From Streptomyces zhaozhouensis (lineage in GTDB: Bacteria > Actinomycetota > Actinomycetes > Streptomycetales > Streptomycetaceae): a stretch of 64,000 bases of DNA. The DNA lies in contig NZ_OCNE01000001.1 of NCBI RefSeq assembly GCF_900230195.1, positions 186,001-250,000 on the forward strand, given 5' to 3'. Below the pieces are notes generated by a model. That model did not search any database. It saw only the letters and a program-made list of their open reading frames with translations, and was not told the origin of the DNA. Below are positions 2,238 through 10,680 of this stretch, piece after piece. The position numbers were made by a program, and so were the translations under genes. The first letter of the stretch is position 1; every line of letters starts with the position of its first letter.

Positions 2238-4742
2238 TCAGACCGTCGCGCGGACGCGCAACGCCCTCGCGAGGTCGTCGAGTTCGTCGGCGAGCGCCCT
2301 GCGCAGCGCCGGCGTCGGCGCCCCGGAGGCCAGGCACTCCTCGCCGAGCGCGAGCGTGGCGGCGTCCGTGAACGGGTGCGGGAAGCAGGCGCGCCCCGCG
2401 GCGACCGCCAGCGCGTGGCCCCGGCGTTGGGCGAGCGCGGCGGCCGCCGGGAAGTAGCGCGGGACGTAACCGGCCAGCAGCTCGCGCTGTTCCGCGTGCC
2501 AGAAGCCCTCGGCGGTGGCCGAGAACAGGTAGTTGGACAGCCGGTCCTCGCCGTCGAACATGTCCGCCCAGGCGGCCTCCTTGGCCGCCGCGTCCGGCAG
2601 CGCGGCGCGGCAGCGCGCGGCGCCCTTCTCGCCGGTGGCGCCGGGGTCGGCGGCGGCCTCGGCGTCGATCGTGGCGCGGTCGGTGGCGCCCAGCACCGCC
2701 AGCCGGTGCAGCAGCCGCCAGCGGAGGTCCTGGTCCAACTCGGGCCCGCCGGGCAGCGCGCCGGCACGCCACCACGCCAGCAGGCCGTCCGGCGCGTCGG
2801 CCGCGTCGATCGCGGCGCGCGCCGCGATCAGCAGCCGCGTCGGGTCGCCGCCGCCCCCGGCGCGCAGCCGGTCGGTGATCTCCCGCACCAGCCCGAGCGC
2901 CTCGGCGCGGCGGTCGTCCGGCAGGTAGCGCCCGGCCAGCGCGCCGCCGGCGAAGCCGAGCACGCCGCTGACGATCACGTGGGCGCTCTCCGACGGCAGG
3001 TGGCGGCGGGCCGCCTCCAGGTAGTCGAACGGGGCCAGTTCGCCGTCCCTGACCATGTCGCGCGCGGCCGTCCAGACCACGGTGCGGCTGAGCGGGTCCG
3101 GCAGGCTGGAGAGGGTGCGCAGCGCGGTAGCCCAGGAGCGCTCGTCGAGGCGGACCTTGGCGTAGCTGAGGTCCCCGTCGTTGACGATGAGCAGGTCGGG
3201 GCGGCCGCCGGGGAAGGCGTGCTCGGTGGTGGCGTCGGCCGCCTCCAGCTCCACGTCGTACTGGGCGCGCGGCAGCACCCGTTCCGGCCGGGTCGGGTCG
3301 ATGTCGTAGGCGCCGAGGCGCAGCCGGTGCGGGCGCCCGCCGTGGTGCGACAGTTGGAGCCGCCAGGTGTCGTCGCCGCCCTCGCCGGTGCGCGGCGCCA
3401 GGGTGTCGGGGCCCGAGGTGCGCAGCCAGGCGTCGGCCCAGGCGTGCACGGGACGGTCGGAGGCGCGGGCCATCGCGTCGATGAAGTCGGCGAGCGTCGC
3501 GTTGCCGAAGCGGTGGCGGGCGAAGTGGTCGTTGATCCCGGCGAGGAACGTCTCCTCGCCGAGCCACGCGACGAGTTGGCGCAGCGCCGAGGCGCCCTTG
3601 GCGTAGGAGATGCCGTCGAAGTTGAGCCAGGCGGACGCGGTGTCCGGCACGGCCTCGGGGGCGGGCGCGACCGGGTGGGTGGAGGGCCGCTGGTCCGCGT
3701 CGTAGCCCCAGGACTTGCGGACGACGGCGAACTCGGTCCACGGCGTGTGGTCGGTCGCGTCGTGGAGCACCTGGTAGCCGAGGTACTCGGCGAACGACTC
3801 GTTCAGCCACACGTCGTCCCACCAGCGCAGCGTCACCAGGTCGCCGAACCACATGTGGGCCATCTCGTGCGCGACGACGACACCGCGCACCTCCCGCTCG
3901 GTCTCCGTGACGGCCGACTGGAAGACGTAGCTGTCGCGGAAGGTGACCAGCCCCGGGTTCTCCATCGCGCCGGCGTTGAACTCGGGGACGAACGCCTGGT
4001 CGTAGGAGTCGAACGCGTAGGGCTCGTCGAAGATCTCGTGGAAGCGGTCGAAGCAGCGCCGGGTGAGGTCGAACAGCTCCTCGGCGTCCCTGTCCAGGTG
4101 GGCGGCGAGCGAACGGCGCGTGTGCAGGCCGAAGGGCAGCCCGGCGTGCTCGGTGGTCACCGAGTGGTAGGGGCCGGCGACCACGGCGAGGAGATAGGTG
4201 GAGATCGGCGGGGTCGGCGCGACGTGCCACCGTCCCGGCCGGTCGGCCTCCCGGATGGCGCGGCCGTTGCCGAGGACGGTCCACTCCTCGGGGGCGGTGA
4301 CGGCGACCTCGAAGACCGCCTTGAGGTCCGGCTGGTCGAAGGCGGCGAAGACCTTGGGCGCCTCCGTCATGCAGCACATGGTGTAGAGGTAGGTCAGCCC
4401 GTCGGCCGGATCGGTGAACCGGTGCATCCCCTCACCGGTCCGCGAGTAGGGCATCTCGGCCACCACGGTCAACTCGTGCGCGCCCTCGGCCAGTCCGGTC
4501 AGCGGCAGCCGGCCGTCGGCCAGGCTGCCCGGGTCCAGCTCCCGGCCGTCGAGAAGCGCCGAGCGCAGGGTGGTGGGGCGCAGCTCCACGAAGGTGTCGC
4601 CGGCCTCGCGGACGGTGAACGCGACGGTGGTGGTCGAGCCGAAGACGGTGTCGCCCCGGGTGAGGTCGAGGTCCAGGGTGTAGCGCTCGACGGTGAGCTG
4701 CCGGGCGCGGGCTTCCGCTTCGAGACGGGTCAGTGTTGCCAT
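2238..4742 (-). CDS. pepN: Aminopeptidase N (M1 zinc metallopeptidase)
   Basis: Cytoplasmic M1 aminopeptidase of about 834 residues, close to the usual length for actinobacterial PepN. It removes N-terminal residues from peptides. Key signatures are the exopeptidase motif GAMEN, the zinc site HEMAHMWFGD (HExxH) with the third ligand Glu in NESFAEYLG about 18 residues later, and the ERAP1-like C-terminal helical domain (DLSYAKVRLDERSW onward). The start chosen is ATG 4742 (MATLTRLEAEARARQL), which aligns with the start of PepN homologues; an in-frame start six codons upstream adds nothing conserved. Monocistronic, followed by a strong hairpin. Confidence 0.93.
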   Translation of the reverse strand: MATLTRLEAEARARQLTVERYTLDLDLTRGDTVFGSTTTVAFTVREAGDTFVELRPTTLRSALLDGRELDPGSLADGRLPLTGLAEGAHELTVVAEMPYSRTGEGMHRFTDPADGLTYLYTMCCMTEAPKVFAAFDQPDLKAVFEVAVTAPEEWTVLGNGRAIREADRPGRWHVAPTPPISTYLLAVVAGPYHSVTTEHAGLPFGLHTRRSLAAHLDRDAEELFDLTRRCFDRFHEIFDEPYAFDSYDQAFVPEFNAGAMENPGLVTFRDSYVFQSAVTETEREVRGVVVAHEMAHMWFGDLVTLRWWDDVWLNESFAEYLGYQVLHDATDHTPWTEFAVVRKSWGYDADQRPSTHPVAPAPEAVPDTASAWLNFDGISYAKGASALRQLVAWLGEETFLAGINDHFARHRFGNATLADFIDAMARASDRPVHAWADAWLRTSGPDTLAPRTGEGGDDTWRLQLSHHGGRPHRLRLGAYDIDPTRPERVLPRAQYDVELEAADATTEHAFPGGRPDLLIVNDGDLSYAKVRLDERSWATALRTLSSLPDPLSRTVVWTAARDMVRDGELAPFDYLEAARRHLPSESAHVIVSGVLGFAGGALAGRYLPDDRRAEALGLVREITDRLRAGGGGDPTRLLIAARAAIDAADAPDGLLAWWRAGALPGGPELDQDLRWRLLHRLAVLGATDRATIDAEAAADPGATGEKGAARCRAALPDAAAKEAAWADMFDGEDRLSNYLFSATAEGFWHAEQRELLAGYVPRYFPAAAALAQRRGHALAVAAGRACFPHPFTDAATLALGEECLASGAPTPALRRALADELDDLARALRVRATV

Positions 4743-4869
4743 GGCGCCATGCTGCCCCACGGCGCGCCGGCGGGCCCAGCGGGTTGTCGGCGTCGAGCGG
4801 GACGTCGGCGCCGAACTCCCCCCGCCGCAGGGCTCGTTGGGCTCGGAGCGGTGCCCCGGGCGCGGGGAG

Positions 4870-4891
4870 TGTCAGTGCCCTGGGCTACTGT
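4870..4891 (+). promoter_or_regulatory. DNA-damage type promoter (RecA-NDp/PafBC motif) before the SLOG-like gene
   Basis: TGTCAGTG (4870-4877), exactly 8 bases, then TACTGT (4886-4891). This fits the actinobacterial PafBC-dependent RecA-NDp consensus TGTCRGTG-N8-TAnnnT. The gene start is 115 bases downstream, leaving a leader of roughly 110 bases. Confidence 0.6.
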
Positions 4892-5006
4892 TCCGCGCAC
4901 CGTGGGAACACCGGGGGGACACCGTCCAGGAAGCCGGACGCCGGGGTCGTGCCGCGCCGGGGGGCGCGGGGCCCGGGGCGGCCGGTTCAGCAGGTGAGGG
5001 AGTCAG

Positions 5007-5480
5007 ATGCGCATAGGGATAACCGGCCACCGTGGGCTGTCGGACGCTGTCGCCGTCCAGGTGCGCGAGGGGCTCGCGGCCGAGGTGGCGCGCGCCGCGC
5101 CCGGGTCGCTGGTGGGCGTCTCGTGCGTCGCCGACGGGCCGGACAGCTGGTTCGCGCGGGCGGTGCTGGACGCCGGCGGCCGCCTTGAGGTGGTGCTGCC
5201 GGCCGACGACTACCGGCAGCGGCTCCCGGAGTGGCACCACGCGGAGTACGACGCCCTGCTGGCCGCCGCCGGCACGGTCCACCGCACGGAGCTGGCGGTC
5301 GCGGACGAGCGGGCGTTCATGACGGCGAGCGAGGTGATGATCGGGCAGGTGGACCGGCTGTTGGCGGTCTGGGACGGCGAGCCGGCCCGGGGCTTCGGCG
5401 GCGCGGCGGACGTGGTCGCCTACGCGCAGCGGGTCCACCTGCCCGTGCGGGTCCTCTGGCCGGAGGGCGCCGTGCGGTGA
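5007..5480 (+). CDS. Small SLOG/Rossmann-like protein of unknown function
   Basis: 157 residues. It opens with MRIGITGHRGL, a beta-strand/glycine loop like those of SLOG (LOG/DprA-like) nucleotide-binding folds, followed by alternating predicted strands and helices (VGVSCVADGPDSWFARAVLDAG, LEVVLPADDY, VDRLLAVWDGEPARGFGGAADVVAYAQ). The DGEPARGFGGAADV loop looks like the second ligand-binding loop of the fold. No enzyme activity can be assigned; SLOG proteins bind nucleotides or their derivatives and often act in stress or defence. GAGGGAG about 12-18 bases upstream is the nearest ribosome-binding candidate. The upstream DNA-damage type promoter is the main functional clue. It stands alone, convergent with the chorismate mutase gene. 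Confidence 0.75.
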   Translation: MRIGITGHRGLSDAVAVQVREGLAAEVARAAPGSLVGVSCVADGPDSWFARAVLDAGGRLEVVLPADDYRQRLPEWHHAEYDALLAAAGTVHRTELAVADERAFMTASEVMIGQVDRLLAVWDGEPARGFGGAADVVAYAQRVHLPVRVLWPEGAVR

Positions 5481-5531: not shown

Positions 5532-5561
5532 TCAGCGCGGCGGGCTCCTCAGCGCGGCGGG
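5532..5561. repeat. Short direct duplication at the 3' end of the chorismate mutase gene
   Basis: TCAGCGCGGCGGG occurs at 5532-5544 and again at 5549-5561. The second copy contains the chorismate mutase stop codon, so the gene's last codons look to have been duplicated in tandem. Confidence 0.6.
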
Positions 5562-5914
5562 TCGGCGGCGTGCTCGCCCGACTGCCGTTCGCCGGCGATG
5601 GTCTCGTGGTGGCGGATCACCTCGGCGATCACGAAGTTGAGCAGCTTCTCGGCGAAGGCGGGGTCGAGCTTGGCGCTTTCCGCCAGTTCGCGCAGCCGCG
5701 CGATCTGCCGCGCCTCGCGGGCGGGATCGGCGGCGGGGAGGTCGTGGTCGGCCTTGAGACGGCCGACCCGCTGGGTGCACTTGAAGCGCTCGGCGAGCAT
5801 GTGCACCACGGCCGCGTCGATGTTGTCGATGCTGTCGCGCAACGCCGCCAGCTCGGCGCGCACGCTCTCGTCCAGACCGGCGGGCGCCCCTGGCCCGTCG
5901 CTGCTCTTCTCCAT
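5549..5914 (-). CDS. Chorismate mutase (AroQ class)
   Basis: About 121 residues; converts chorismate to prephenate for Phe/Tyr synthesis. The all-helical AroQ pattern is clear: ELAALRDSIDNIDAAVVHMLAERFKCTQRVGRLK (helix 1 with catalytic Arg and Lys positions), REARQIARLRELAESAKLDPAFAEKLLNFVIAEVIRHHE (helices 2-3). ATG 5914 has GGGTGG six bases upstream; a GTG at 5923 is an alternative. No signal peptide, so a cytoplasmic enzyme. It is divergent from the kinase gene at 6099. Confidence 0.85.
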   Translation of the reverse strand: MEKSSDGPGAPAGLDESVRAELAALRDSIDNIDAAVVHMLAERFKCTQRVGRLKADHDLPAADPAREARQIARLRELAESAKLDPAFAEKLLNFVIAEVIRHHETIAGERQSGEHAADPPR

Positions 5915-6098
5915 GGTCACCACCCTATGCGGGAGCGTCGCGCGGCCGGGAGGCGGCCGCCCGTGCTCCCGGGCCCGCCGGGCGCGGGGCCACGGCGCGG
6001 AACAACTCCCCGTGCCTTCGCACCCGTTAAGCGCGACGGCCTAGGATGTGGGGGCCCGAGACGGCCCCATCAGCGATCGACGACCCCGAGGCGGAGCG

Positions 6099-8219
6099 AT
6101 GAGACCACTGACCTCCGACGATCCGGCGTCCGTCGGGCCCTACCGGCTGCTGGGGCGGCTCGGCGCCGGCGGAATGGGCGAGGTCTTCCTGGGGCGCGGG
6201 CCCGGGGGAAGGTTGACGGCCGTGAAGCTGATCCACGCCTCGCTGGCCGCCGACCCCGAGTTCCGGCGCCGTTTCCGTCGCGAGGTCGACGCCGCCCGGC
6301 GGGTGAGCGCCGAGTGGACCGCCCCCGTGCTGGAGAGCGACACGGAGTCCCCGGTGCCCTGGGTCGCGACCGGGTACCTGCCGGGTCCCTCGCTGCACCA
6401 GGTGGTCGACGACCGTTTCGGCCCGCTCCCCGAGGAGACGGTCTGGTCGCTGGCGCACGGCCTGGCCAGGGCGCTCACCGACATCCACGCGGCCGGCCTG
6501 GTGCACCGCGACCTCAAGCCGTCGAACGTGCTGGTCACGTTGGACGGCCCGCGGGTCATCGACTTCGGCATCGCCAGGGCGGCGGACGCCAGCATGGTGA
6601 CGCGGACCGGTTCGCTGGTCGGGTCCCCCGGCTACATGCCGCCCGAGCAGATCCGCGACGAGGCGCTCTCGGGCGCGGCCGACGTGTTCGCGCTCGGCGC
6701 CGTGCTGGGCTTCGCCGCCACGGGCGAGGCGCCGTTCTCGGGCGGGCGGGCGCCGGTGCACACCGTGCTCTACCGCGTGGTCCACGAGGAGCCCGCGCTC
6801 GGCCCCGAGGACGGCCCGTTGGCCGGCGCCCTGCGGGAGTTGGTCGCCCGCTGCCTGGCCAAGGACCCGGCGGAGCGGCCCTCGGTGGCCGAGGTCGTCG
6901 AGGCGACGGCCGGGCGGGGCCGGGCGGCCGTGGACGCGGAGAGCGGGCTGTGGCTGCCGGCCACGCTGACCTCCCTGCTGGGCCGCGAGGCGGCGGGGTT
7001 GCTCGCGCTGGACGGTCCCTCGACCACCCGGGTCGACCCGGCGCCCGCGACGCCGCCCCCGCCCGCCGGTCCGCCGGCGGGCCCCCCGGAGCTCCGCCCC
7101 GCGCCGCCGCCCGACGCGCCCGACGCACCCGACGCACCCGACGCACCCACGGTGACGGCGTTCGGCGGCTCGCCGCCCGCCTCCGGCGGGGGACGGAGCA
7201 GGACGACGGTGATCGCGGCGACGGCCGCCGCCGTCGCCGTACTGGCCGCCACGCTGGGCTGGGCGCTCAACCGCTCCTCCGACGACGACACCACCGCCGG
7301 CGGCTCCCCCACCGAGGACCCCGCCGTCTCCGAGCCCGCGCCGGACCCGGACGGGGAGGGAGCGGGCGACGGATCGGGCGACGGGTCGGGCGGCGACGAG
7401 GACGGCGCTCACGGCGGCGCGGGCGATCCGGAGGCGCCGCTGCACCACCTGCTGCCGGCGAGCGTCCGGGAGTCGGGGGTGATCACGGTCCGCACGGGCG
7501 GGGAGTACCCGCCGTTCTTCGCACCCACGGGCGACGACGCGTACGCCGGGATCGAGCCGGACCTGGCGGCGGCGGCCGGCGAACTGCTCGGCGTGGAGTT
7601 CGAGTACCGCACGGTGCGGGGCGACGTGCTCCAGCAGATGTCGAACGAGCTCAGCGGCGGCATGGACGTCGAGGACATCGGCTGGGGCTCGTTCATGGTC
7701 GACCGGGACGCCGAGTCCGCGGTCAACATCGACTTCGTCAGCCATCTGAGGGAGGGGTGGGTGCTGGTCGTCCCCGAGGGCCGCCCCGACACGCTGGGCG
7801 AGCTGTGCGGCGCGACCTTCGCCTCCTGGCACTCCTTCTTCCTGGAGGAGCGGCTGGCCGGATGGTCCGAGGAGGCCGGCTGCGCGTCACCGCCCGACAC
7901 CTCCGGCCAGTACTACGCGGAGGAGACGCTGGACGAGGTCGCCTCCGGCGGGGCGGACGCGGCGCTCATGCTCCAGGGCACCGCGATGGCGCTGGGCGAG
8001 GAGATCGCGGAGGCCGGGCTGACGGTGGGTGAGCCGGTCGAGATGATCGAACGCGGCATCGCGGTCGGCGTGGGGCAGCCGGAGATCCGCGACGCCCTCG
8101 CCGAGGCCCTCTCGATGCTGGTCGAGGACGGGACCTACGCCGGGATCCTCGCCGACTGGGACGCGGAGGAACTGGCCGTCGAGGAGATCACCGTAGACCC
8201 CTTCGTCTACGAGGAGTGA
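6099..8219 (+). CDS. Membrane Ser/Thr protein kinase fused to an extracellular family-3 solute-binding domain
   Basis: 706 residues. Residues ~15-270 form a PknB-type kinase: glycine loop GRLGAGGMGEV, Lys43, HRD at 136-138 with DLKPSN, DFG at 155-157, and an APE-like PPEQ. A Pro/Ala linker with PDA repeats (~305-350) leads to one membrane span (~369-391, TVIAATAAAVAVLAATLGWAL), an acidic Gly/Asp/Ser spacer, then from ~455 a SBP_bac_3 domain (SGVITVRTGGEYPPF, AGIEPDLAAAAGELLGV, QYYAEETLDEVASGGADAALM, GIAVGVGQPEIRDALAEAL). The kinase is cytoplasmic and the binding domain outside, as in a ligand receptor. ATG 6099 has GAGG seven bases upstream. The ligand is unknown; the family binds amino acids and other small polar molecules. 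A TAGGAT -10-like hexamer lies at 6042-6047. Confidence 0.9.
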   Translation: MRPLTSDDPASVGPYRLLGRLGAGGMGEVFLGRGPGGRLTAVKLIHASLAADPEFRRRFRREVDAARRVSAEWTAPVLESDTESPVPWVATGYLPGPSLHQVVDDRFGPLPEETVWSLAHGLARALTDIHAAGLVHRDLKPSNVLVTLDGPRVIDFGIARAADASMVTRTGSLVGSPGYMPPEQIRDEALSGAADVFALGAVLGFAATGEAPFSGGRAPVHTVLYRVVHEEPALGPEDGPLAGALRELVARCLAKDPAERPSVAEVVEATAGRGRAAVDAESGLWLPATLTSLLGREAAGLLALDGPSTTRVDPAPATPPPPAGPPAGPPELRPAPPPDAPDAPDAPDAPTVTAFGGSPPASGGGRSRTTVIAATAAAVAVLAATLGWALNRSSDDDTTAGGSPTEDPAVSEPAPDPDGEGAGDGSGDGSGGDEDGAHGGAGDPEAPLHHLLPASVRESGVITVRTGGEYPPFFAPTGDDAYAGIEPDLAAAAGELLGVEFEYRTVRGDVLQQMSNELSGGMDVEDIGWGSFMVDRDAESAVNIDFVSHLREGWVLVVPEGRPDTLGELCGATFASWHSFFLEERLAGWSEEAGCASPPDTSGQYYAEETLDEVASGGADAALMLQGTAMALGEEIAEAGLTVGEPVEMIERGIAVGVGQPEIRDALAEALSMLVEDGTYAGILADWDAEELAVEEITVDPFVYEE
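7111..7149 (+). repeat. 9-bp tandem repeat encoding PDA units in the kinase linker
   Basis: Four near-identical copies of cgacgc(a/g)cc encode PDAPDAPDAPDAP just before the membrane span. Such repeats can change copy number and so linker length. Confidence 0.6.
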
Positions 8220-8247: not shown

Positions 8248-8269
8248 TGTCAGTGCCGCCGACTACTCT
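8248..8269 (+). promoter_or_regulatory. DNA-damage type promoter (RecA-NDp/PafBC motif) before the VOC gene
   Basis: TGTCAGTG (8248-8255), 8 bases, TACTCT (8264-8269), the same layout as at 4870-4891. The ATG is at 8276, six bases after the -10, so transcription should begin at or next to the start codon and give a leaderless mRNA. Confidence 0.65.
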
Positions 8270-8275
8270 GCCCGC

Positions 8276-8653
8276 ATGATCGCCTCCCTTCAGTGCCTCG
8301 TCGTCGACTGTCCCGACCCGACCGCCCTCGCCCGCTTCTACGGGGAGATCCTCGGCAGCGAGCCGGACACCTCCCGGCCCGAGTGGGTGACGCTGGCCAC
8401 CCCGGACGGCCTGCGGTTCGCCTTCCAACGCGCGGAGAACCACCGGCCGCCGGCCTGGCCCGACCCGGAGCGCCCCCAGCAGATGCACCTCGACTTCGAC
8501 GTGCCGACCCTCGCCGACCTGCCGGAGGCCGAGGCGAGGGTGCTGGCCCTCGGCGCGACGTTCCTCCACGACAGCGGAGGGGAGACCAGCGGCTTCCGCG
8601 TCTACGCGGACCCCGCGGGCCATCCGTTCTGCCTCTGCTACGGCCAGGGCTGA
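8276..8653 (+). CDS. VOC (glyoxalase/bleomycin-resistance fold) family protein
   Basis: 125 residues with two beta-alpha-beta-beta-beta modules: ASLQCLVVDCPDPTALARFYGEILG in the first and MHLDFDVPTLADLPEAEARVLALGA then YADPAGHPFCLCYG in the second. VOC proteins are metal-dependent dioxygenases, glyoxalases, or drug/metabolite-binding proteins; this single-gene type cannot be assigned further. ATG 8276 is chosen because the alignable fold starts there and a promoter -10 sits immediately before it with no ribosome-binding site; an in-frame start at 8216 would lie upstream of that promoter. It lies between two kinase genes and converges with the second. Confidence 0.85.
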   Translation: MIASLQCLVVDCPDPTALARFYGEILGSEPDTSRPEWVTLATPDGLRFAFQRAENHRPPAWPDPERPQQMHLDFDVPTLADLPEAEARVLALGATFLHDSGGETSGFRVYADPAGHPFCLCYGQG

Positions 8654-8697: not shown

Positions 8698-10350
8698 TCA
8701 GGTCCGGCGCCGCCTCGTCATCAGCCGGCCCTCCCCGTCGAGGCGTTCGTCGCTCTTCAGGATGAGGATCCCGTCGACGAACCCCCAGAAGAACGCGCCG
8801 CCGGCGGTGAGGAACTGGAGGAGACCGACGCCCCAGTGCCCGGAGTAGAAGCGGCCGAGCCCGAAGACGCCGAAGAAGACCTGCAGCCAGCCCATGACGG
8901 CCTTCGACTTGGGCGAGAGCTCGGGCCCTCCCCCTCGGCCGCGGTCGTTCCCCGGCGGCGGCGCCGACGGGGTGGCGGGCGACGGGACGTCGGCGGGCGC
9001 CGGGGAGGGCTCGGCGCGGGACGCTGGCTCGGGGTCGGGCGTCGGCGCGCTCGGCGGGGCGGTGTCAGCCGCCGGCGGGGTGGTGTCAGCCGCCGGCGGG
9101 GTGGTGTCAGCCACCACCGGCGGAGCGGTGTCAGCCGCCGGCGGGGTGGCTATCTCCGTGGGAGCGGCGTGCGCCGAGGCGGTGGCGAACTCGGGAACGC
9201 CCCCGCGCGCGACGGGGGTCGAGGGGGCGGCGGGTGGCGGCGGCGTCGCGGGTTCCGCGGGAAGGGGCGCGACCGGAGCGGCGGGGGTGGCCGGTTCCGT
9301 GGGGGCCGCGTGCGCGTCCGAGACCGTGAGCGGCGGGCCGAACGCGCCCTGCGGAGTGGCGTCGCCTGAGGACGCCGGCGCGGTCGGCGTGTACGGCGCG
9401 CCCCCGGCGTCCCACCGGGTCGGGGCGGCGGCGTCCGCGCTGTCGGTGGGCCCGCTGAGGGCGAGCAACCGGGCCGCTTCCTTGCCGAGTTGCGCGGTCA
9501 GGGCGGGGGGCAGCCACACGCCTTCCGCGCCGTCCGGGTCCTGGTGGCGCTCGGCCTCCTTCGCGATCTCCTCGGGGTCGGGCCGGTCGGACGGGTCCTT
9601 GGCCAGGCAGCGTTCCACCAGGTCGCGTATGGGGCCCGAGAGCCCGTCGAGCGTGGGCGGCTCGGCGACGACGCGGTGCATCAGCGAGTGCGCCGCGGAG
9701 TCACGGGTGCCGAACGGCCCCTCGCCGGTGGCGGCGTAGGCGAGTACGGCGCCGAGGCCGAAGACGTCGCTGGCGAAGGTGAGGCGTTCGCCGCGGACCT
9801 GCTCGGGCGACATGTATCCGGGCGAGCCGATCGCCACGCCCGTCCGCGTCGCGACGGCGCCGTCGGTGGCGCGCGCGATGCCGAAGTCGATGACACGCGG
9901 GCCGTCCAGCGTGATCAGCACGTTCGACGGCTTGAGGTCGCGGTGCGTCACCCCGGCGCCGTGGATGGCCATCAGCGCCCTGGCCAGCCCCTCGGCCAGC
10001 CGCCACACGGAGAACTCGGGGAGCGCGCCGTGCAGTTCGTCCACCGCTCGGGTCAGTGCGGGGCCCGGCACGAAGCCGGTGGCCAGCCACGGCACCTCGG
10101 CCTCGGTGTCGGCGCCGAGCACCGGCATGGTCCACTCGCCGGAGACGCGCTGGACGGCGGCGGCCTCCTGGCGGAAACGGCGCCGGAACTCCGGCTCGAA
10201 CGCGAAGTGCGGATGGATCAGCTTCACCGCGACCGTCCGCCCGTCCGGGGCGCGGCCCAGGTAGACCCGGCCCATCCCGCCCGCCCCGAGGCGCGCCAAC
10301 AACCGGTATCCGCCCAACTCACGCGGATCCGCGGGCTCCAACGGTTTCAC
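8698..10350 (-). CDS. Ser/Thr protein kinase with C-terminal TM2 domain
   Basis: About 550 residues. Kinase domain at ~15-275: GRxGxG-type loop LGAGGMGRVYLG, Lys43, HRDLKPSN, DFGIARA, GYMSPEQ. A long Ala/Pro/Thr-rich linker (~300-470) carries repeated TPPAAD units. The C-terminus (~480-545) is a TM2 domain: KSKAVMGWLQVFFGVFGLGRFYSGHWGVGLLQFLTAGGAFFWGFVDGILIL, two membrane spans joined by the conserved Asp turn. The kinase is therefore anchored at its C-terminus with no extracellular sensor. Start GTG 10350 (VKPLEPADPRELGGYRLL) has AGGGAG about nine bases upstream. Its kinase domain resembles that of the gene at 6099, so the two may be paralogues. Confidence 0.9.
   Translation of the reverse strand: MKPLEPADPRELGGYRLLARLGAGGMGRVYLGRAPDGRTVAVKLIHPHFAFEPEFRRRFRQEAAAVQRVSGEWTMPVLGADTEAEVPWLATGFVPGPALTRAVDELHGALPEFSVWRLAEGLARALMAIHGAGVTHRDLKPSNVLITLDGPRVIDFGIARATDGAVATRTGVAIGSPGYMSPEQVRGERLTFASDVFGLGAVLAYAATGEGPFGTRDSAAHSLMHRVVAEPPTLDGLSGPIRDLVERCLAKDPSDRPDPEEIAKEAERHQDPDGAEGVWLPPALTAQLGKEAARLLALSGPTDSADAAAPTRWDAGGAPYTPTAPASSGDATPQGAFGPPLTVSDAHAAPTEPATPAAPVAPLPAEPATPPPPAAPSTPVARGGVPEFATASAHAAPTEIATPPAADTAPPVVADTTPPAADTTPPAADTAPPSAPTPDPEPASRAEPSPAPADVPSPATPSAPPPGNDRGRGGGPELSPKSKAVMGWLQVFFGVFGLGRFYSGHWGVGLLQFLTAGGAFFWGFVDGILILKSDERLDGEGRLMTRRRRT
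9057..9150 (-). repeat. 21-24 bp imperfect tandem repeat in the kinase linker
   Basis: Four copies of a unit close to ggcggggtggtgtcagccgcc encode the ADTTPPA/ADTAPP segments of the Pro/Thr linker. Copies differ by a few bases, consistent with slippage and drift. Confidence 0.65.
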
Positions 10351-10680
10351 GCCCTGCTCCCTGTCCCCCGTGACGTCAGGAAAACCACTGCTCTCGCTAC
10401 CCTCTCGATGCACTCGGAATGGGCCAACCCGGCCGCCGGAGACGGCCGTTGCCACTTCCCACGACCGGAACACTCTCGCACGCGGACGGGTCGGCGGCGC
10501 GCCCCGCCGTCCCCTCCGGCCCGGGACGGAACGACCGTCGACGGCCACAGCCGTGCGGGCAAGCCGAACGGTACCGTTCCCACCGCCCCCCGTGCGCCTC
10601 GCCCCCGGGGACGGGCTGGCGCCCCGTGCGCGGGGCGACGGCCCGTCAGCGGCGGCGTCCGCCGACCGGCTGGCGCCGCG
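10351..10680. other. 330-bp intergenic region: kinase promoter side and terminator of the ABC operon
   Basis: No credible gene. The left part is the upstream region of the TM2 kinase and carries the perfect dyad TGACGTCA (10371-10378), of unknown meaning. The right part holds the hairpin listed separately. Confidence 0.5.
10610..10647 (-). terminator. Terminator of the sugar ABC operon
   Basis: Two nested stems: GACGGGC (10610-10616) with GCCCGTC (10641-10647), and CGCCCCG (10620-10626) with CGGGGCG (10631-10637). It lies 33 bases after the last permease stop. Confidence 0.7.

Follow-up and report, generated by a model that had tools for sequence, protein, structure and literature searches.

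A YpsA-like SLOG protein gene behind a PafBC-type promoter: a candidate lineage-specific member of the DNA-damage regulon in a small Streptomyces clade

Does the gene of a small, stand-alone SLOG protein belong to the DNA-damage regulon of its Streptomyces host and, if so, what might such a protein contribute to the damage response? The question is posed by a site in the gap between this gene and a divergent aminopeptidase gene (pepN), where a sequence-only reading of the window (the entire 64-kb stretch of DNA analyzed here) had claimed an exact copy of the PafBC/RecA-NDp motif, followed at N8 spacing by TACTGT. That claim is borne out: the string at 4870-4891 on the plus strand, consisting of TGTCAGTG, an 8-nt spacer and TACTGT, fits the consensus TGTCRGTG-N8-TAnnnT exactly. 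The gap extends over 264 bp, from the likely pepN start (4742, minus strand) to the ATG at 5007 (Table 1), and the chance expectation of an exact motif within it, from base composition alone, is 1e-5. The complete window contains two exact matches (at 4870 and 8248, both on the plus strand) and two with one mismatch; in the shuffled window, the mean number of matches with at most one mismatch is 0.32, and none of the 100 shuffles reaches four. The further claim that this is the only promoter-like element in the gap agrees with a sigma-70-type consensus scan of 4700-5060, which finds no other promoter.

Table 1. Features of the SLOG locus, with positions in the window
Feature	Position	Strand	Basis
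-26 element TGTCAGTG, PafBC/RecA-NDp-type promoter	4870..4877	+	exact match; conserved in two relatives
-10 element TACTGT	4886..4891	+	exact TAnnnT at N8 spacing
Predicted transcription start	4897..4899	+	inferred, ~7 nt past the -10 element
Ribosome-binding site AGGTGAGGGAG	4992..5002	+	read by eye; block largely conserved in S. sedi and S. triticirhizae
Stand-alone SLOG (YpsA-like) protein gene, 157 aa	5007..5480	+	ORF; AF2 model; YpsA fold match
Divergent aminopeptidase N type (M1 peptidase) gene, outside the unit	2238..4742	-	PF01433, E 9e-53
Convergent chorismate mutase gene	5549..5923	-	PF01817, E 1.8e-22

Other interpretations of the site and its surroundings fare poorly. A LexA/SOS box as the damage element is ruled out, since two patterns were searched and neither occurs in the gap: GAAC-N4-GTTC is absent from 4002-5306, and the looser CGAAC-N4-GNNCG from 4144-5301, with up to one mismatch allowed in each case. 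As a promoter of pepN, the site is in the wrong orientation, and this reading is also contradicted by S. triticirhizae, where the site is present and tblastn finds no pepN match in the contig stretch covering 1.5 kb upstream of the promoter. A possible leaderless upstream ORF of 31 codons (4902-4997), whose start lies 10 nt past the -10 element and whose stop leaves 9 nt to the SLOG start codon, was rejected upon comparison by eye with S. sedi, in which its GTG is replaced by GTA. The chorismate mutase gene that follows is on the opposite strand, so that the SLOG gene appears to be monocistronic. Further along the window, reading by eye discerns a serine/threonine kinase apparently fused to a solute-binding-type domain (6099-8219) and, on the other strand, a second, similar kinase (8698-10548). 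Judging from the sequence, the promoter at 4870-4891 is very probably genuine and of the PafBC type; what holds our confidence back is the long leader, with 115 nt between the -10 element and the SLOG start codon.

The same motif is abundant across the host genome (6.53 Mb), which contains 62 exact copies versus none for the reversed pattern and about 0.6 predicted from base composition alone. These copies are strongly associated with the starts of genes: 38 of the 62 have a plausible start codon -2 to 12 nt past the -10 element, compared to 176 of 2000 positions drawn at random from these loci (Fisher P 2e-23), and at 27 sites, the -10 element precedes the nearest plausible start by 6-9 nt, which is the pattern of leaderless promoters and makes the 115-nt distance at the SLOG gene atypical for the genome. 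Ten of the 62 downstream proteins, picked for their repair-like look, were scanned against Pfam and nine matched, eight of these belonging to named repair or helicase families (RecA, UvrC, UvrB, UvrD-helicase, MgsA-type AAA, RuvC, UDG and exonuclease VII) and the ninth being a KaiC/AAA ATPase with a zinc ribbon that we read as RadA; L002, DinG by eye, has no Pfam match at E up to 1e-8. Further downstream genes, named by eye from the sequence, include thyX, ogt, dnaX and dnaG among others. On a single contig (G000:C22), two adjacent WYL hits (185683 and 186671) and two Pup_ligase hits (189071 and 195906) together span less than 12 kb. The Pup-ligase locus is the known neighborhood of pafB and pafC, and the WYL pair is probably pafB/pafC-like. 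The resemblance to the PafBC/RecA-NDp regulon of mycobacteria, and to the recA and SCO6735 promoters of S. coelicolor, thus encompasses the -26 and -10 elements, the spacing between them, the putative pafB/pafC-like pair near the Pup locus, and the repair genes behind the motif; the window site differs in that its target is a SLOG protein, its leader is long, and its distribution is limited to one small clade.

Beyond this genome, the motif is found 20-76 times in each of the 61 same-genus genomes (the host included), compared to 0-3 occurrences of the reversed pattern. These counts, along with reports of RecA-NDp promoters in portions of two articles (PMC5087735, PMC8223512), speak for a genus-wide occurrence of the motif. 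They are hard to square with a remark in a 2022 study of S. venezuelae (PMC9380542), in passages of which an initial search is said to have suggested that the M. smegmatis PafBC motif was not conserved in that species, and a LexA-independent response in Streptomyces is described as yet to be shown. The second exact PafBC-type site in the window (8248-8269), which is also present in S. sedi (L061:9417), is followed after 6 nt by the ATG of a VOC/glyoxalase-family gene (8276-8653; PF18029) that is leaderless and possibly damage-induced.

The promoter of the SLOG gene is shared with two relatives, in both of which all 11 specified letters are retained. In S. sedi, a close relative of the host in which the orthologous protein is 96% identical, the motif likewise lies 115 nt before the start codon, and the -10 element is TACTGT; in S. 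triticirhizae, the distance is 79 nt, and the -10 element is TACTCT. Between the window and S. triticirhizae, the specified letters agree at all 11 positions, the spacer at 4 of 8 and the rest of the noncoding alignment at 77 of 150 columns, with gaps scored as mismatches, an excess of conservation that is significant by Fisher's test (P 0.001). Downstream, S. triticirhizae has the same chorismate mutase and kinase genes as the window (90% and 89% identity), whereas upstream, in place of pepN, it has a same-strand open frame that ends 149 nt before the motif. The flank, therefore, breaks upstream of the motif, and the promoter travels with the SLOG gene.

This association does not extend to the rest of the family. 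Among the 100 homologue entries with at least 300 bp of upstream sequence, the exact motif is found in four, which represent the same three genes (one of them entered twice, as L062 and L122), and is absent from the 300 bp searched before the 96 others; it is also absent within 400 bp of 40 further homologues at 38-47% identity. The survey left out L128 and L140, whose orientation could not be established, and L105 because it has 94 bp upstream, and its 100 entries may contain duplicates; a motif string with one mismatch is located upstream of L080. A promoter common to the whole SLOG family can thus be rejected, and damage response is not a trait of the family at large. In a tree of 97 of the 101 homologues (L122, L105, L110, and L071, which has a stop in the stretch as read, were left out), the three promoter-bearing proteins group together with support of 99/91, and the damage promoter is likely to be a lineage-specific recruitment in one small Streptomyces clade. 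The sequence-only reading had suggested an undescribed response, a notion that has to be scaled down: with the promoter limited to this clade, what stands is at most an offshoot of the known PafBC response that is particular to this lineage. In 56 of the 101 distinct homologue entries, the SLOG gene is the second of a recurrent two-gene unit, a short distance behind an XRE-type regulator gene; these entries include a paralogue in the host genome (L179, G000:C45:9540-10010) and the next most similar homologue (G261, 70%); the three-species clade has the damage promoter and lacks the XRE regulator. The paralogue is 61% identical, has no exact motif before the gene, belongs to another branch of the tree and is accompanied by an XRE regulator; a recent duplication within the genome is accordingly rejected. 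At E up to 1e-5, SLOG homologues were detected in 37 plasmid records (24 from Streptomyces); none of the 50,697 phage records contains one at E 1e-5.

That the product is a SLOG protein is practically certain. The AlphaFold2 model (39-sequence alignment; pLDDT 94.5, pTM 0.90) confidently predicts a SLOG Rossmannoid fold that spans the whole chain, as the sequence-only reading had surmised in describing a Rossmann/SLOG-like protein. Among solved structures, Foldseek ranks B. subtilis YpsA first (E 4.8e-8), ahead of DprA, ShosA, a Moco carrier and LOG proteins. VIA-align, applied as a re-examination of the Foldseek hits only, yields a Z score of 18.5 for YpsA (rmsd 2.6 over 153 residues, 18% identity), 16.0 for DprA (146 residues), about 12 for LOG proteins and 8-9 for the SLOG domain of ThsA. 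A profile search, which the earlier reading had proposed along with the structure prediction, gave a more equivocal outcome: YpsA and DprA were retrieved from the PDB, but with weak E values (0.05 and 0.07) and behind two unrelated cell-wall surface proteins (0.04). A single-sequence search of the PDB produced two weak matches (E 0.07 and 0.2), both to unrelated proteins, so that for the fold, sequence evidence by itself is weak. The Pfam YpsA profile (PF06908) scores 12.7, below its 27.7-bit cut-off; 5 of the 39 aligned members match this profile at E up to 0.1, the best at 4e-4. NCBIfam has no family for the window protein, and PADLOC returns nothing for it.

The putative ligand site can be located by comparison with YpsA. 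In the profile alignment, GPD at residues 44-46 (G44-P45-D46) corresponds to G-V-E of YpsA, which we take as the GxD/E signature with G53 and E55, described in passages of PMC6459960 as the predicted site of ligand binding. All but one of the 101 distinct homologue entries retain GxD. Another loop reads GFGGAAD in the window (GFGGAADVV) and mostly GYGGTAD in the homologues; the window protein, that of S. sedi and L138 have GGA instead of the GGT found in the other 97 readable homologues, five of which were scored by eye, and ligand handling may therefore be altered. The likeness to YpsA, accordingly, includes both the fold and the GxD/E motif; the differences are the low sequence identity, the sub-threshold Pfam score and a different gene context.

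The nature of the ligand is suggested by more distant members of the family. In five homologues outside actinobacteria (L112-L115 and L117, from Rhizobium, Bacteroidota, Planctomycetota and Acidobacteria; 33-40% identity, with L113 and L114 nearly the same), a caspase-like gene directly precedes the SLOG gene and overlaps it by 1-4 bases; four of these five genes, the four scanned by Pfam, match Peptidase_C14. All five scanned TIR/ThsB-like neighbors of L112 and L113 match TIR_2 or ThsB_TIR in Pfam, and clustering adds TIR/ThsB-type genes in L114 and L115, for four of the five loci in all. Another distant homologue, the sixth (L116, 27-28%), lacks a caspase-like neighbor at position -1 and has one nearby gene with weak TIR/ThsB-type matches. 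The compact SLOG-caspase(-TIR/ThsB) gene sets, such as L112:4633-6983 and L113:61-2919, are possibly multi-part defense systems with a separate SLOG gene. Unlike these Thoeris-like operons, the SLOG gene of the window stands alone between pepN and the chorismate mutase gene, both on the other strand, and its operon includes no TIR/ThsB or caspase gene. In passages of PMC9503650, SLOG domains of the YpsA-like kind are placed with proteins that sense cADPR-type signals and are linked to cADPR/NAD. It is on account of this placement, together with the caspase and TIR neighbors of the relatives, that an NAD+/ADP-ribose-type compound becomes the best guess for the ligand; this assignment is tentative.

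Damage control of ADP-ribose-related genes has a precedent in S. coelicolor, where SCO6735, which encodes an ADP-ribosyl hydrolase, is under a RecA-NDp promoter and, according to passages of PMC5087735, is induced 5-fold by UV. The same passages report no significant sensitivity of the SCO6735 mutant to UV or MMS, which calls for caution in phenotype tests. SCO6735 resembles the SLOG gene as an ADP-ribose-related gene outside classical repair that is under RecA-NDp in Streptomyces (portions of PMC5087735 and PMC9411070), a likeness that, on the SLOG side, depends on the tentative ligand; the two differ in that SCO6735 is a macrodomain protein. The one Macro hit in the host genome (L232) has no exact motif in its 3.4-kb locus.

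In our view, the best explanation, to which we assign a probability of about 0.6, is that the SLOG gene has joined the PafBC (LexA-independent) DNA-damage regulon as a lineage-specific member and that its product, a YpsA-like SLOG protein standing alone and induced by PafBC, binds a nucleotide or an ADP-ribose-type ligand. The computed observations are the promoter sequence and its conservation across three species, the genome-wide enrichment of its motif, and the fold and signature of the protein; from these, we infer induction, PafBC dependence, the ligand, the loops that contact it and the effect of the protein. In mycobacteria, PafBC is described, in passages of PMC11804915, as being activated by ssDNA and acting by sigma adaptation. 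By the same route, accumulation of ssDNA would lead PafBC to redirect the housekeeping RNA polymerase to 4870-4891, and a monocistronic transcript, with a leader of about 110 nt, would start near 4898 and be translated from the ATG at 5007. The single-domain product would then bind a nucleotide, most likely of the NAD+/ADP-ribose type, with the GITGHR and GGxAD loops and the GPD (GxD) motif as contacts, and during repair, could serve as a sensor, or else as a sink or processor, for this ligand.

Alternatively, the promoter match could be idle, with the SLOG gene driven otherwise or not regulated by damage at all. The unusual 115-nt leader would fit such a view, as would the fact that 5 of the 62 exact sites in the genome have no plausible gene within 400 nt and 16 lie inside a called ORF (the gene caller is crude, and some ORFs are probably called too long), so that an exact copy need not be a working promoter. 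However, the minute chance expectation in the gap, the persistence of the site in S. triticirhizae across an altered flank and the lack of any other sigma-70-type consensus promoter in the gap render an idle match improbable. If the promoter is functional, the product could still act differently, for instance, as a nucleotide-sanitizing phosphoribohydrolase of the LOG kind that, following DNA damage, cleaves damaged or modified nucleotides. LOG proteins are indeed structural neighbors of the SLOG protein, and uracil-DNA glycosylase is among the regulon genes, but the phosphoribohydrolase signature of LOG, PGGxGTxxE, is absent, its place being taken by GFGGAAD or, in most homologues, GYGGTAD; we regard this activity as unlikely.

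The second-best fold match suggests a different role, that of a single-domain DprA-like protein which would bind ssDNA and assist RecA. The profile search aligns the GxD region with DprA, and recA itself has a promoter site of the same type; against this stand the acidic character of the window protein (pI 5.3, no lysine), the lack of any extra domain and the caspase and TIR genes that adjoin its distant relatives, and a DprA-like role appears highly improbable. The closest solved structure, in turn, raises the prospect of a damage-induced division brake, whereby a YpsA-like protein would delay septation until the DNA is repaired. According to passages of PMC6459960, overproduction of YpsA inhibits FtsZ assembly and disrupts the rings, and the G53A and E55Q substitutions abolish filamentation; moreover, in passages of PMC9380542, Streptomyces is said to be without clear homologues of known SOS division inhibitors. 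Yet, the damage promoter is found in three species only, and at 18% identity to YpsA, a common fold does not prove function, so that such a brake is rather unlikely. The most elaborate version, in which PafBC would induce a YpsA-like SLOG protein that reads an ADP-ribose-type damage signal and restrains septation in this clade, is quite improbable.

What is known in this case is the type of regulon and the fold superfamily; what is new is the candidacy of this SLOG gene as a member. Among the literature matches listed, as judged from titles and the openings of abstracts, no paper joins a SLOG protein with a PafBC/RecA-NDp promoter. On the reading preferred here, a response associated chiefly with repair enzymes would gain a candidate nucleotide-sensing protein, and one gene, one promoter and one regulator would make up a compact test case. 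The genus-wide motif counts, for their part, bear on the question of a LexA-independent response in Streptomyces. If true, the scenario of a SLOG protein that restrains septation would connect DNA damage with division in these filamentous bacteria, where such a link is missing, and would mean that a defense-type sensor had been turned into a nucleotide-signal arm of the damage response.
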